NCBI RefSeq assembly: GCF_003751505.1
Contig: NZ_RJVB01000003.1
Span: forward strand, 246,712-310,711
DNA from: Erwinia sp. JUb26
GTDB taxonomy: Bacteria > Pseudomonadota > Gammaproteobacteria > Enterobacterales > Enterobacteriaceae
DNA length: 64,000 bases
Direction of reading: 5' to 3'
In this document: in pieces, positions 4,970-52,473 of the stretch
How positions within the stretch are numbered: position 1 is the stretch's first letter
Layout: every line of letters starts with the position of its first letter
Notes under the pieces: model-generated
The model's database searches: none
What the model was told of the DNA's origin: nothing
The model's input: the letters and a program-made list of their open reading frames with translations, nothing else
Translations under genes and position numbers: made by a program

Positions 4970-6883
4970 ATGTCACTAATCAGTATTCATGGCGCTTACC
5001 TTTCATTCAGCGACGCGCCGTTGTTGGATAGCACTGAACTGCACATCGAAGAAAATGAGCGCGTTTGTCTGGTCGGGCGTAACGGAGCGGGTAAATCCAC
5101 GCTGATGAAAATCATCAACCGTGAGCAGCCGCTGGATGACGGTCGCATCATTTATGAGCAGGACCTGATCGTCGCGCGCCTGCAGCAGGATCCGCCGCGT
5201 AACGTGGCCGGTTCGGTTTATGACTTTGTGGCCGAAGGGGTGGAGGAGCAGGCGGAACACCTGAAGGCCTACCACGCAATTTCCCATAAGGTAATGGAAG
5301 ATCCGAGCGACAAAAATTTGAACGAGATGGCGCGCCTGCAGTCCATCCTTGACCACCAGAATCTGTGGCAGCTGGAAAGCCGTATCCATGACGTGCTGGA
5401 GAAAATTGGCCTTGATGGCGATGCCGATCTGTCTTCTCTGTCTGGCGGCTGGCTGCGTAAAGCGGCGCTGGGCCGCGCGCTGGTCAGCAACCCAAAAGTA
5501 CTGATGCTCGACGAGCCAACCAACCACCTGGATATTGAAACGATCGACTGGCTGGAAACGTTCCTGAAAACGTTCCAGGGCAGCATTATCTTTATCTCTC
5601 ACGACCGTTCATTTATCCGCAATATGGCGACGCGGATTGTCGACCTGGACCGCGGTAAGCTGGTGTCCTGGCCGGGAGATTACGATCAGTATCTGCTGAG
5701 TAAAGAAGAAGCGCTGCGCGTTGAAGAGATGCAAAATGCAGAATTTGATCGCAAGCTTGCGCAGGAAGAAGTGTGGATCCGCCAGGGCATCAAGGCGCGC
5801 CGTACGCGTAACGAAGGCCGTGTTCGTGCCCTGAAAGCGTTGCGTCGCGAGCGTTCCGAACGTCGCGAAGTCATGGGTAAAGCCAACATGCAGGTGGAAG
5901 AGGCGTCGCGCTCCGGCAAGATCGTCTTTGAAATGGAAAACGTTAAGTACGGCATCGCGGGCAAGCAGCTGGTCAACGACTTCTCCCGTCAGGTTCAGCG
6001 CGGCGACAAAATTGCCCTGATTGGTCCGAACGGCTGCGGTAAAACCACGCTGCTGAAGCTGATGCTGGATCAGCTCAAGCCGGATAGTGGCCGGGTGCAT
6101 ATCGGCACCAAACTGGAAGTGGCCTACTTTGACCAGCACCGTGCCGAGCTGGATCCTGACCGTACGGTGATGGATAACCTGGCCGAAGGTAAGCAGGAAG
6201 TGATGGTTAACGGCAAGCCGCGCCACGTGCTGGGCTATCTGCAGGAGTTCCTGTTCCATCCAAAACGTGCGATGACCCCGGTACGGGCGCTTTCCGGTGG
6301 AGAGCGTAACCGACTGCTGCTGGCGCGCCTGTTCCTGAAGCCCAGCAACCTGCTGATCCTCGATGAACCAACCAACGACCTCGATGTGGAAACGCTTGAG
6401 CTGCTGGAAGAGCTGATCGATGGCTATCAGGGTACCGTACTGCTTGTCAGCCACGATCGTCAGTTCGTTGATAACACCGTGACCGAATGCTGGATCTTCG
6501 ATGGCAACGGTGAGATTGGCGCGTTTGTCGGCGGTTATCATGATGCCCAGCTGCAGCGTACCGCCTGGAAACAGAACCGTGCGGCGGCGAAAAATACGGC
6601 GTCTCAACCTCGCCAGGAAAGCGTTAAAAGCGAAGCAGTGAAAAAACCGGCTGCTAAGCTGAGCTACAATTTACAGCGCGAACTGGAACAGCTTCCGAAA
6701 AAAATGGAAGAGCTGGAAGCTCAGCTTGCTGCTTATCAGGCTCAGGTGGCTGATGTAAACTTCTTCAACCAGCCGCATGATGCGACTCAGCCGGTGCTGG
6801 ACGCGCTGGCAAACGCTGAGCAGGAACTGGAAACGGCGTTTGAACGTTGGGAATACCTTGAGTCGTTAAGCAACGGCGCGTAA
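4970..6883 (+). CDS. uup: ABC-F family ATPase Uup
   Basis: Soluble twin-ATPase of the ABC-F family without membrane segments, linked in E. coli to ribosome-associated functions and to tolerance of tandem-repeat excision. Walker A motifs are GRNGAGKST (about residue 36) and GPNGCGKTT (about residue 352). Signature motifs are LSGGWLRKAALGRAL and LSGGERNRLLLARL, with LDEPTNHLD and LDEPTNDLD as Walker B regions. Residues about 230-310 form the charged linker, and about 560-637 form the C-terminal coiled coil that binds DNA in the family. Length 637 matches E. coli (635). Confidence 0.96.
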   Translation: MSLISIHGAYLSFSDAPLLDSTELHIEENERVCLVGRNGAGKSTLMKIINREQPLDDGRIIYEQDLIVARLQQDPPRNVAGSVYDFVAEGVEEQAEHLKAYHAISHKVMEDPSDKNLNEMARLQSILDHQNLWQLESRIHDVLEKIGLDGDADLSSLSGGWLRKAALGRALVSNPKVLMLDEPTNHLDIETIDWLETFLKTFQGSIIFISHDRSFIRNMATRIVDLDRGKLVSWPGDYDQYLLSKEEALRVEEMQNAEFDRKLAQEEVWIRQGIKARRTRNEGRVRALKALRRERSERREVMGKANMQVEEASRSGKIVFEMENVKYGIAGKQLVNDFSRQVQRGDKIALIGPNGCGKTTLLKLMLDQLKPDSGRVHIGTKLEVAYFDQHRAELDPDRTVMDNLAEGKQEVMVNGKPRHVLGYLQEFLFHPKRAMTPVRALSGGERNRLLLARLFLKPSNLLILDEPTNDLDVETLELLEELIDGYQGTVLLVSHDRQFVDNTVTECWIFDGNGEIGAFVGGYHDAQLQRTAWKQNRAAAKNTASQPRQESVKSEAVKKPAAKLSYNLQRELEQLPKKMEELEAQLAAYQAQVADVNFFNQPHDATQPVLDALANAEQELETAFERWEYLESLSNGA

Positions 6884-49114: not shown

Positions 49115-49837
49115 ATGGCTGCTGACACTTATTTCAGCTGGCGAGACGCAGTTCAATTCGATTTCAGTAAACAAACTGAGGTTGATCGGGTGACCCTGTT
49201 AATTGAGCAGCACGCAAAGCGTCTCGGATTCGATTTTTATGTGCTTTTCATCAGGCATCCTGTGCCATTTACCCGGCCGAAGACCTTTTATTACTGTAAT
49301 TTGCCGGAAGAATGGATAAATTTTTATTTTCAGAAAAATTATTCTCCTGTGGATCCGATACTAAGGAATTGTCATTTCCCGGGCAGCCTGTGGGTGTGGG
49401 ACGATGAGAGTGCTGGTGAAGGCGCAGTAATGATGCAGGCCGCCCGGCAACACGGGATTTACCACGGCATTTCAACCTCTGCCATCGCCCAAAACCGGGC
49501 AACGGGAATATTATCATTCGCCTCATCAGATCCGTTCAATAATGTAAAATTAACCACCGAGTTAGAGCTTAAACTCCAGTATCTGGTGGAACTGTCTCTG
49601 GCGGCGCTCACTCGCCTGAATGATATTTCAATGGTGTCAGTAAAACTGGAATTAAGTGACCGCGAGCGTGAAATCCTCAAGTGGACCGCTGAAGGAAAAA
49701 CATCAGCTGAAATATCGCTGATACTTTCTATTTCACAGCACACGGTTAATTTTCATCAGAAAAACATGCAAAAACGATTAAATGCGCCAAACAAAACGCA
49801 AATTGCTTCTTACGCGGCCGCCATCGGTTTGATCTGA
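49115..49837 (+). CDS. sdiA: LuxR-family AHL receptor SdiA
   Basis: Quorum-sensing transcription factor, 240 residues, same as E. coli SdiA. The AHL-binding domain (about 15-165) keeps RHPVPFTRPK, the Trp/Tyr pair in EEWINFY, the DP of PVDPIL and the Trp of WVWDDE. The GerE-type HTH (about 175-240) is almost identical to E. coli: SDREREILKWTAEGKTSAEI and NFHQKNMQKRLNAPNKTQ. GGGGAATTA precedes the ATG. A luxI-type gene follows 128 bases downstream, unlike in E. coli and Salmonella where SdiA has no synthase. Confidence 0.95.
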   Translation: MAADTYFSWRDAVQFDFSKQTEVDRVTLLIEQHAKRLGFDFYVLFIRHPVPFTRPKTFYYCNLPEEWINFYFQKNYSPVDPILRNCHFPGSLWVWDDESAGEGAVMMQAARQHGIYHGISTSAIAQNRATGILSFASSDPFNNVKLTTELELKLQYLVELSLAALTRLNDISMVSVKLELSDREREILKWTAEGKTSAEISLILSISQHTVNFHQKNMQKRLNAPNKTQIASYAAAIGLI

Positions 49838-49847
49838 CAAAAGACGC

Positions 49848-49867
49848 AACTACTAATTTTGGTAGTT
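49848..49867. promoter_or_regulatory. lux-box-like palindrome upstream of the AHL synthase gene
   Basis: AACTACTAATTTTGGTAGTT: 20 bases, 6-base perfect arms with the CT-N12-AG spacing typical of lux/las boxes, 98 bases upstream of the synthase start and 10 bases after the sdiA stop. Likely bound by SdiA. Confidence 0.6.
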
Positions 49868-49880
49868 TCGTATTACTAAC

Positions 49881-49912
49881 GGGTTGTCTACCCTTCGCAA
49901 GGGTAACAACCC
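49881..49912 (+). repeat. Hairpin between sdiA and the synthase gene
   Basis: GGGTTGT (49881-49887) pairs with ACAACCC (49906-49912), with an inner stem ACCCTT/AAGGGT. No T tract follows, so it may be a weak sdiA terminator, an attenuator, or a leader structure for the synthase mRNA. Confidence 0.5.
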
Positions 49913-49965
49913 TGCGCGGCCCGCCTGGGGCGGTTTTCGTGCGGGAGTGCGACGGGGATTTATCA

Positions 49966-50589
49966 ATGAAAATTATTCAGACCAAACTGAAGGATATGCC
50001 TTCCTCGTTGCTGGCCGAGTTGGGAAGCTATCGTTACAGCGTTTTTGCCAGAGAAGAAGGCTGGTCAATTCCGTCACGGCTTAGCACCCCCGGTCAGGAG
50101 TACGATCGCTTCGATCGCTCAGATGTTTGCTGGCTGATTGCCTGGCATGCGCAGCACGGTATCTGCGGCTGCGCCCGGCTGATGAAATGGCAGTGTCCTG
50201 ATAATAACGACCTTTCTGACGCCGAGCGTGAAAGCCTGAACGGCGGCCCGATCTGGGAAATGTCGCGTTTTTCAGCGCGTCTGGAAATTGACAGCGAGTT
50301 GCCGTTGAATATTTTATGGCATGCACTGCAGCTGGCCGAGCAGTCCGGCATTGGCAATTTATTCAGCGCAGCCACACCGATGCTGGAGAAAATGTTTGGC
50401 CAGTATCACGTTAACTACCTGCCGCTGCCGCCGGGCGTAATTCAGTCGGAAGACAATCTGTTCGCCGTAAAAATACCGGTGTCACAGCCCGAGCTGGCAA
50501 GCCGTTTTCACGGCTCCAGACGCTTTAAGCCTGAAGAGGTCCTGCCGTCACTGGGCGTTTCCATCAGTTGGGGGATGCGCGGCCGCTAG
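49966..50589 (+). CDS. LuxI-family acyl-homoserine lactone synthase
   Basis: Makes an N-acyl-homoserine lactone from SAM and an acyl-ACP. 207 residues from ATG 49966. By hand, nine of the ten residues invariant in the family are found: Arg23, Phe27, Trp33 (YRYSVFAREEGW), Glu45, Asp47 and Asp50 (QEYDRFD), Arg71 (GCARLM), Glu98 and Arg101 (WEMSRF); the Phe expected near residue 84 is not evident. Acyl chain length cannot be read. GGGGATTTATCA precedes the start. It follows sdiA and overlaps convergent GlpM-family gene by 4 bases. Confidence 0.92.
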   Translation: MKIIQTKLKDMPSSLLAELGSYRYSVFAREEGWSIPSRLSTPGQEYDRFDRSDVCWLIAWHAQHGICGCARLMKWQCPDNNDLSDAERESLNGGPIWEMSRFSARLEIDSELPLNILWHALQLAEQSGIGNLFSAATPMLEKMFGQYHVNYLPLPPGVIQSEDNLFAVKIPVSQPELASRFHGSRRFKPEEVLPSLGVSISWGMRGR

Positions 50590-50924
50590 GCATGCCATTT
50601 CGACCACAGGGTAATCAACAGCCAGGCCGCCACGGACCAGCAGGCGACCGCGGCCATCAATGCAGGCACCAGGCGCATCATGTTGATGAAATACCACAGC
50701 GAAAGCAGATAAACGAAGTAGGGAATAATCGCCCACATGCCGAACAGGATGGTTGCGCGCAGCGCTTCCATTCCGCGCTCGCTGCCGACGATATAGTGTG
50801 CGATCAGCGCAAACGTTGGGAACAGCGGGATCAGTCCGGCAAGATAGTAATTACGTGTTTTTGCGAGTATCCCGATCAGTAAAACCACCACAGCGCCAAG
50901 TATCGCTTTTATCAGTAAGGCCAT
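50586..50924 (-). CDS. ydgC: GlpM-family inner membrane protein (YdgC-like)
   Basis: 112-residue protein with four hydrophobic helices, closely similar to E. coli YdgC (111 residues): LLIGILAKTRNYYLAGLIPLFPTFALIAHYIV and IIPYFVYLLSLWYF. The family is named after Pseudomonas GlpM, associated with alginate and glycerol phenotypes; its mechanism is unknown. In E. coli ydgC is at a different map position. Convergent with the AHL synthase gene. Confidence 0.9.
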   Translation of the reverse strand: MALLIKAILGAVVVLLIGILAKTRNYYLAGLIPLFPTFALIAHYIVGSERGMEALRATILFGMWAIIPYFVYLLSLWYFINMMRLVPALMAAVACWSVAAWLLITLWSKWHA

Positions 50925-51066: not shown

Positions 51067-51291
51067 CTACTGACGGAAAGCGTATTTGATTTGCTTTACG
51101 GTATTACTGAATACTTCGGCCTGCTGCTCATCCTCTAAGCCCGCAATGTAGCGTTCCATATTGATGATCACTTTGCCCGCGTCGGCCTGACCAATCGATT
51201 TCAGCATCAGCGTAACCAGCGCCTTCATGCAGGTGACTTCGTTAGCTAACGCCTTAACGTCTTCACTGGTTGAAAAGTCAATCTGACTCAT
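51067..51291 (-). CDS. yecF: Small conserved protein YecF (DUF2594)
   Basis: 74 residues, the size of E. coli YecF. Shared segments are [28 protein letters not shown] and the end [13 protein letters not shown]. Predicted helical and cytoplasmic; function unknown. It is next to uvrY as in E. coli, in the opposite direction. AGGAGAGATC lies before the start. Confidence 0.93.
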
Positions 51292-51816: not shown

Positions 51817-52473
51817 TTGATAAGCGTTTTTCTCGTCGATGACCACGAACTGGTGCGTACAGGGATCCGTCGCATACTGGACGATATCAAAGGTATCCAG
51901 GTAGTCGGTGAAGCCAACTGTGGTGAGGATGCAGTCAAATGGTGTCGCGGCAACAACGTTGACGTGGTGCTGATGGATATGAATATGCCCGGTATCGGCG
52001 GCCTTGAGGCCACGCGTAAAATTGTGCGCTACACGCCGGATGCTAAAGTGATCATGCTGACCATTTACACTGAAAGCCCGCTGCCGGCAAAAGTGATGCA
52101 GGCCGGTGCCGCAGGCTACCTCAGCAAAGGGGCTGCGCCGCAGGAAGTGGTCAACGCGATTCGTTCAGTCAATGCCGGACAGCGCTACATCGCGTCGGAT
52201 ATTGCCCAGCAAATGGCACTGAGTCAGATCGAACCGCAGGCCGAATCGCCGTTCAGCTGTTTGTCAGAACGCGAACTGCAGATTATGCTGATGATTACTA
52301 AAGGTCAGAAAGTGACTGAGATTTCCGAACAGCTGAACCTTAGCCCGAAAACGGTCAACAGCTACCGCTATCGGATGTTCAGCAAGCTTAATATCAGCGG
52401 TGACGTCGAGTTAACCCATCTGGCCATCCGTTATGGCCTGTTTAATTCGGAACCGTTAATCAGTAGTGAGTAG
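51817..52473 (+). CDS. uvrY: Response regulator UvrY
   Basis: BarA-UvrY (GacA-type) response regulator that activates csrB/csrC sRNA genes. 218 residues: receiver domain with [10 protein letters not shown], phospho-acceptor Asp54 ([10 protein letters not shown]) and Lys in [10 protein letters not shown]; LuxR-type HTH at about 145-205 ([20 protein letters not shown]...[14 protein letters not shown]). The start is a TTG at 51817 with AGGGAG six bases before it, and gives the family N-terminus. Its end overlaps uvrC by 8 bases, so uvrYC is an operon. Confidence 0.97.

Follow-up and report, generated by a model that had tools for sequence, protein, structure and literature searches.

SdiA is the textbook eavesdropper among LuxR-type receptors. 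In Escherichia, Salmonella and their relatives it is a solo receptor without a linked synthase. The closest described systems in which the receptor has a partner are ExpR/ExpI of Erwinia and PhzR/PhzI of Pantoea, where a LuxI-type synthase stands beside sdiA and for which RhlR/RhlI are the nearest relatives (PMC3474713). The arrangement is repeated in a 2025 review, according to which the place and the ligand of SdiA activation in enteric bacteria are still debated (PMC12086679). The present analysis concerns a 64,000-nucleotide stretch of Erwinia sp. JUb26 (contig NZ_RJVB01000003.1, positions 246,712 to 310,711), hereafter the window, in which sdiA is followed by a luxI-family gene and the genes between sdiA and uvrY are the same as in the described systems. 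The locus is a further case of an arrangement in print for Erwinia and Pantoea since 2012, and its basic interpretation is already published; the points of specialist interest are the non-standard LuxI, the indirect or contrary evidence on its acyl-homoserine lactone (AHL) product and the several genomes that keep the enzyme without SdiA.

A preliminary description of the locus, made from the sequence alone, had the coordinates and the reading of sdiA and its adjacent luxI-family gene right, and it stated that such pairs in Erwinia and Pantoea had been published as descendants of the ancestral SdiA synthase; that publication exists and says so (PMC3474713). Its text mentions neither the loss of Phe84 (F84), nor receptor-less members, nor a conserved promoter box, and its claim on the product cites two culture papers.

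Among the wider LuxR/LuxI systems, the Pseudomonas pairs that we take to be RhlR/RhlI and PhzR/PhzI group with the window pair in the trees of both proteins. The phz locus alone was checked for its name, by its phenazine genes, a PhzI/PhzR example standing beside phzA/phzB-type genes. These Pseudomonas synthases keep F84, unlike the window clade, and all 39 tree rows outside that clade fit the usual pattern; PhzI of P. chlororaphis HT66 makes 3-hydroxy-AHLs, namely the 3-OH-C6-, 3-OH-C8- and 3-OH-C10-homoserine lactones (HSL) (PMC5776774). The next matches in the family sample were LuxR-RsaM-LuxI systems of the TofI/TofR type, which differ from the window in having a gene between receptor and synthase, in keeping F84 and in their chromosomal place. 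In the one tested, the intervening gene belongs to DUF4902 and is presumably RsaM-like. Nine other family members (L135-L143; L and G numbers denote the loci and genomes of this analysis) have luxR and luxI flanking a small gene, and several of those that were read sit among genes that, from their sequence, we take to belong to cobalamin biosynthesis. Elsewhere in the window genome (5.37 Mb, 23 contigs), on a different contig (contig 5), there is a second luxI/luxR pair, a canonical one (L001) that is presumably of the EsaI/EanI type. Its synthase scores 204.6 bits to Autoind_synth, and the pair lies far from the linked one in both trees.

A LuxI-family synthase without Phe84

The listed open reading frame (ORF) of luxI begins at GTG 49939; ATG 49966 is the likelier start, because Met occupies that column in 10 of 12 aligned orthologues, and gives a protein of 207 aa whose stop codon ends at 50589. 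The protein reaches 23.3 bits against Pfam Autoind_synth (PF00765), where the gathering cut-off is 24, and its linked orthologues, matched in 11 of 15 genomes, reach 20.7-30.6 bits. Its first match among PDB sequences is the AHL synthase TofI (E 8.2e-15), which is the nearest solved structure by sequence. An AlphaFold model (predicted local distance difference test, pLDDT, 82.7; predicted template modelling score, pTM, 0.82) was used for a structure search, and the top nine rows by Z were AHL synthases. The alignment to RpaI gave Z 16.6 and a root-mean-square deviation (rmsd) of 3.5 over 176 aligned residues, and that to TofI Z 15.7 and rmsd 3.2 over 163; other GNAT enzymes rank from Z 13.8 down, with EsaI among these at 13.6. 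Judged by this model, the window synthase has the LuxI fold of the GNAT superfamily.

The preliminary description had counted nine of ten invariant residues, and the alignment bears this out. Taking as invariant the ten residues that we presume to be those usually listed for LuxI, with their presumed numbering, the window synthase keeps R23, F27, W33, D47, D50, R71, E98, R101 and F102, and F84 is missing; F102 itself is Phe in just 25 of the 36 LuxIs used for comparison. The F84 column holds Phe in none of the 67 clade members (the window and 66 named loci) versus all 36 other LuxIs, whichever of four alignment modes was used. The comparison LuxIs were drawn from family, order, class and phylum samples, after removal of candidate ORFs that were evidently read in a wrong frame or encoded other acyltransferases. 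The stretch between R71 and E98 is variable, with 18-30 residues in the clade (mostly 23) versus 29-30 in other LuxIs, and the window synthase and 17 others have no Phe within it. The usual F84 segment was not seen by eye in 31 distinct synthases from further Erwinia loci. After R101 there are 27 residues to G128 in 67/67 clade members versus 32-38 in 35/36 others; the sole exception is a Pseudomonas PhzI (L178) with 24, and the short loop after SRF was for this reason rejected as a mark of the clade. Because F84 is absent from every clade member and present in each of the 36 other LuxIs sampled, the alignment places the enzyme as a divergent member of the LuxI family and not as a typical AHL synthase. 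A decaying pseudogene was rejected, as the window gene and those of all 66 named loci have open frames, nearly every one keeps the catalytic set and the median ratio of nonsynonymous to synonymous change (dN/dS) is 0.059.

The receptor carries Autoind_bind and GerE domains, both above the Pfam cut-off. Its match to the NCBIfam SdiA equivalog NF007561 spans the full length (1-240 of 240) at 276.4 bits, under the curated cut-off of 350, so the strict equivalog label is not claimed; synteny with uvrY holds. Window SdiA keeps W67, Y71, D80, W95 and S134 (E. coli numbering), residues to which we assume a role in the ligand pocket. The position of E. coli Tyr63 is Leu in the window, while Tyr is kept in 11/11 solo and 11/17 paired rows, and position 132 is Ile in 17/17 paired rows and Phe in 10/11 solo rows. 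These differences suggest a changed ligand pocket.

Ancestry and distribution of the pair

The synthase tree has 60 rows. Its SdiA-linked clade is monophyletic (support 100/100), sits on a stem of 2.26 changes per column and groups with the RhlI-like and PhzI synthases of Pseudomonas (99/97); RhlI-like is our presumed label, as no named RhlI is among the rows. The tree program warned of long branches meeting. With the variable segments removed, few columns remain and the stem shortens to 1.19; the clade still joins that group (94/83, unstarred), its sister there being the whole Pseudomonas set. Sistership to Pseudomonas PhzI specifically, at 91/90 on all columns, falls under the long-branch warning, is not recovered on the trimmed columns and is not claimed. 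Recent transfer of the synthase from an unrelated LuxI family is supported by neither the all-column nor the trimmed tree; the enzyme groups with RhlI/PhzI-like synthases of Pseudomonas-type genomes, and the receptors of these are likewise the closest outgroups of SdiA.

The receptor tree (61 rows) places 17 paired SdiA rows (98/95) and 11 solo rows, E. coli included (95/95), as sisters (100/99). RhlR-like receptors join them first (97/92), and PhzR next (95/87). Common descent of receptor and synthase within the RhlR/RhlI-PhzR/PhzI group is supported by these trees, and their agreement supports the 2012 proposal that the pair was inherited and that the synthase was lost once in the solo lineage. 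Agreeing trees would also be compatible with a single gain of the synthase.

In a sample of 246 genomes of the family, 14 (the window genome included) carry a synthase orthologue of at least 60% identity and 10 others show weaker matches. An SdiA match of at least 160 bits was found in 73 of the 246, with a linked synthase in 11 and none in 62; three of the 14 synthase genomes (G086, G031 and G064) have no SdiA match of at least 160 bits.

A conserved box and predicted control by SdiA

A 20-bp palindromic box of the lux type precedes the synthase gene (Table 1), and its consensus across loci is AACTACYAAATTTRGTAGTT. It starts 111-120 bp ahead of the synthase start, with at least 15 of 20 matches in 62 of the 63 loci with sdiA and at least 17 in 57 of them, the 63 including three with damaged sdiA frames (L066, L099 and L106); in 1360 shuffles the best score reached 15 twice. 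The scores in five loci without sdiA are 12 (L067), 16 (L068, Erwinia psidii, a lopsided box remnant), 11 (L108), 9 (L109) and 13 (G086). Because the box is present with sdiA and absent or decayed in these five, SdiA probably controls the synthase, with the conserved box as the predicted site through which it would activate the neighbouring gene.

A TTGTCTAC..CTGCG block at a fixed distance after the palindrome is nearly invariant among 22 aligned intergenic regions, a subset of the 63. With TACCCT as the -10 element, the box centre would lie about 43.5 nt upstream of the implied start site, and in LuxR biology such spacing is the layout of a class II activator. In 6/7 sdiA-bearing genomes the synthase promoter alone lies within one mismatch of the box, and the window genome has three such sites in all. 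The box was rejected as a genome-wide regulon marker, as there are nearly no other sites and no excess over a reversed control. A structured leader between box and start was likewise not accepted: several leaders contain hairpin-like repeats that differ between groups. In a Pseudomonas-group genome (L228, from G1092) a box with 18/20 matches to the Erwinia consensus lies at 2112-2131, upstream of a related LuxI, and the other eight loci scanned in that group score 12-16; the L228 box leaves room for a cis-site that may be as old as the receptor-synthase pair.

Genomes that keep the synthase without SdiA

Four of the 66 named loci have lost sdiA; in L106 the gene is interrupted by stops, and in L066 and L099 its 3' end is shifted. 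L067 and L068 still have relics of sdiA, L108 has a short one of the N-terminal part, and L109 and G086 showed none. When the genomes of these five (L067, L068, L108, L109 and G086) were searched whole, no SdiA orthologue was found, the best score being 69 bits versus at least 160 for true ones. A survey of 37 genomes of the genus gave 33 with both genes, three with the synthase only, none with the receptor only and one (G1223) with neither; 36 of them have an open synthase frame of nearly full length, and SdiA reaches at least 230 bits in 33. In G1226, sdiA is broken across several frames and the box scores 17/20, and two survey genomes (G1202 and G1210) show the same matches as the genomes of L067 and L068. 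A second, canonical LuxI is present in 13/15 genomes examined; Erwinia sp. OLFS4 (L108) yielded no LuxI besides the linked synthase. The stink-bug symbiont Pantoea sp. Eser (L106) has an sdiA with several stops and a linked synthase that lacks D47 and has E98 changed to D, so that both genes are decaying together.

The synthases are more alike than the receptors in 136/136 pairs of 17 loci (means 72.7% vs 53.8%). The leaning is partly general, because other receptor-synthase pairs show it more weakly: 42/45 among RsaM-type pairs and 18/28 among Pseudomonas pairs (1/3 among the RhlI-like). The median pairwise dN/dS is 0.059 for the synthase (912 pairs) and 0.121 for sdiA (678 pairs), counting only pairs with a synonymous difference (pS) of 0.3-0.72 and leaving out two loci without a usable sdiA frame. 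Receptor-less synthases compared with the nearest paired one gave 0.114, 0.057, 0.139 and 0.047, two of them with synonymous sites near saturation; L109 and G1226 fall outside these figures, their synonymous sites being saturated. The end branches of the receptor-less synthases L108 (0.47) and L109 (0.45) are long.

Published evidence on the product

Two culture papers stand behind the product given for these synthases in 2012: Venturi 2004, which judging by its title reportedly used E. amylovora cultures, and Morohoshi 2007, which is said to concern P. ananatis and its EanI. Both are cited for the statement that the synthases make oxoC6 (PMC3474713). E. pyrifoliae, which carries this gene pair, activated neither CV026 nor an Agrobacterium sensor (data not shown), and an unknown signal was proposed by the authors of that study (PMC2827408). 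An eanI deletion mutant of P. ananatis PA13 made no CV026-visible AHL (PMC7883899). The linked synthase is present in LMG 2665 (L069), the representative of that species, in which EanI/R is treated as the AHL system (PMC5867869). Mutant phenotypes have been reported as well: a phzI::Tn5 insertion in P. eucalypti abolished symplasmata and was complemented, the authors naming the gene an AHL synthase and inferring quorum sensing (PMC4989142), and phzI transposon mutants of P. ananatis BRT175 were susceptible to grazing (PMC4863597). Judging by the gene name and the phzR/sdiA neighbours, these mutants would concern the orthologue of the linked synthase. Searches of the open literature for receptor loss beside the synthase and for orphan LuxI gave no direct answer.

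The second luxI/luxR pair of the window genome could supply an AHL to SdiA. The same pair would confound AHL tests of the sdiA-linked gene. The preliminary description saw in the locus a means of self-signalling in place of eavesdropping, and AHL self-signalling is less secure than the pairing itself.

Discussion

The interpretation that we hold to be fairly probable is a vertically inherited receptor-synthase pair in which SdiA activates the synthase through the box and the enzyme has an altered product, probably not a common short-chain AHL. On this view the Erwinia/Pantoea lineage has passed down to the window both an orthologue of SdiA and a LuxI-type enzyme descended from the partner that SdiA originally had. 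The palindrome at 49848-49867, centred about 43 nt ahead of the inferred start site, is the most likely binding site of SdiA, from which the receptor is predicted to activate the synthase gene. Since the enzyme retains the LuxI fold and all but one of the ten invariant residues, acyl transfer to S-adenosylmethionine most likely still takes place; with Phe84 and the conserved segment around it lost, the acyl donor and the product probably differ from those of the common short-chain AHLs. Given the range of the CV026 sensor, the expected product would be an acyl-HSL that sensors of this type read poorly, such as a 3-hydroxy-acyl-HSL like that of the related PhzI, and not 3-oxo-C6-HSL. The ligand sensed by SdiA would be either this product or the AHL that the second LuxI pair makes, or both. 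Computation shows the order of the genes, the common ancestry, the conservation of the box, the residue loss and the loss of the receptor beside a retained synthase, while activation by SdiA, catalysis and the product are inferred from these.

Several observations weigh against this interpretation. A Phe elsewhere between R71 and E98 occurs in 49 of the 67 members and may stand in for F84 there; it mostly follows R71 by 17 residues and precedes E98 by 7, whereas the corresponding distances in other LuxIs are 14 and usually 17. The 36 comparison LuxIs, moreover, include several near-copies. On the side of control, the box is missing in Pantoea sp. 1.19 (L107) although its sdiA frame is open, TACCCT fits the -10 consensus at 3/6 positions only, and matches to the box pattern are no more numerous per genome than those to the reversed control pattern. 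Six genomes have an open synthase with sdiA lost or broken (L067, L068, L108, L109, G086 and G1226), which a simple closed pair does not predict. In the open literature, with subscription papers mostly outside it, no paper was found that shows the product of a linked synthase, and the AHL assays with negative outcome were done in other species and under conditions that may leave the gene silent.

An ordinary self-signalling pair, in which SdiA responds to 3-oxo-C6-HSL from the synthase and feeds back positively, would suit the LuxI fold with its nearly complete catalytic residues, the class II-like placement of the box, the retained W67, D80 and S134 of SdiA, the Phe found elsewhere in the F84 segment of most members and the oxoC6 stated in 2012 (PMC3474713). 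It nevertheless appears unlikely in view of the clade-wide loss of F84 on a very long stem branch, the Leu at receptor position Tyr63, the biosensor-negative E. pyrifoliae (PMC2827408) and the PA13 eanI mutant, which showed no CV026-visible signal though LMG 2665 carries the linked synthase (PMC7883899). That the product or role of the synthase has become independent of SdiA, the product being another acylated molecule or an AHL for another receptor and SdiA a mere regulator that can be lost, we regard as possible though not probable. The six genomes with an open synthase and a missing or broken sdiA point in this direction, as do the synthase-only genomes of the genus survey set beside none with the receptor only, the greater likeness of the synthases in every pair compared and their lower dN/dS, which stays low (0.047-0.139) in the four measurable receptor-less synthases. 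Yet box and sdiA go together closely, which argues for the importance of SdiA control where the receptor is present, and the greater conservation of the synthase is often seen in other receptor-synthase pairs too. The long end branches of L108 and L109 may reflect relaxation before loss, the synthase of L106 has changed at D47 and E98 beside an sdiA with stops, and the five receptor-less genomes searched all have other LuxR-type proteins, four of them also a canonical LuxI.

A separate acquisition, with the synthase inserted beside a long-solo SdiA whose original partner it never was, seems very improbable. One gain costs the same as one loss on the sister clades of solo and paired receptors, and the synthase stem of 2.26 exceeds the roughly 0.8 that separates the rhlR-like group from the paired receptor clade; receptor and synthase, however, independently join the same Pseudomonas group, in which three pairs are tandem with the receptor first, and one of the nine loci scanned there has the 18/20 box upstream of its LuxI, the others scoring 12-16. 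Beyond the favoured inherited pair with an altered product, a more far-reaching and rather doubtful conjecture is that the linked synthases are a LuxI branch whose function changed in an ancestor of the Erwinia/Pantoea group: Phe84 and its segment would have been lost in a burst followed by strong constraint, the product would lie outside the usual 3-oxo and unsubstituted short-chain AHLs, and its use would be independent of SdiA, leading to recurrent receptor loss, so that SdiA of E. coli and Salmonella may descend from a receptor for a signal unseen by standard AHL sensors. Our confidence in this conjecture was lowered slightly because most members have a Phe elsewhere in the segment. Should the product of SdiA's original partner not be among the AHLs employed in SdiA assays, those assays may have tested the wrong ligands. 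The question can be put to a direct test with the enzyme, its promoter box and the strains that naturally lack the receptor.

Gene order and neighbouring genes

The preliminary description placed luxI between sdiA and yecF, and this order is correct; luxI is not directly beside yecF, however, as a gene of the GlpM family intervenes (Table 1). That gene is convergent with luxI, overlaps its 3' end and was found by tblastn in 20/66 named loci, mostly of the Erwinia type, and so small a share led us to reject it as part of the receptor-synthase pair. In the window, uvrY is followed by uvrC and pgsA. We take yecF, uvrY, uvrC and pgsA to be so named from their translations, and yecF and uvrY were also matched to the annotated E. 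coli region (one record), where they neighbour sdiA as well. The 66 named loci were collected with synthase peptides and are thus biased to synthase bearers; tblastn gave a yecF match in all of them, uvrY in 65 (the sequence of the remaining one ends before uvrY) and sdiA in 62. The same order across this synthase-biased set led us to reject a chance pairing of sdiA and synthase. The closest named relatives of the synthase are those of 'Pantoea coffeiphila' strain 1480 (93%), an uncultured Erwinia (90%) and Erwinia species (about 75-79%).

Table 1. Features of the sdiA-luxI region, in window positions.
Feature	Positions	Strand	Basis
sdiA (paired-branch orthologue; ExpR/PhzR in Erwinia/Pantoea), LuxR-type receptor, 240 aa	49115..49837	+	ORF, domains, tree
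20-bp palindromic lux-type box AACTACTAATTTTGGTAGTT, predicted SdiA site	49848..49867	.	conserved position and score
Predicted -10 element TACCCT of synthase promoter	49889..49894	+	conserved block
luxI-family synthase (ExpI/PhzI type), 207 aa, without Phe84	49966..50589	+	ORF, profile, structure, residue alignment
GlpM-family membrane protein gene	50586..50924	-	Pfam GlpM 170.6 bits
yecF (DUF2594 family), conserved neighbour	51067..51291	-	ORF; tblastn 66/66 named loci
uvrY/sirA/gacA response regulator, conserved neighbour	51817..52473	+	ORF; 65/66 named loci

Outside this region, a luxI-like gene of another family was met at 5195-5776 of locus L147 (genome G230), where it adjoins what, from the translations, appears to be a ketosynthase/reductase biosynthesis cluster.

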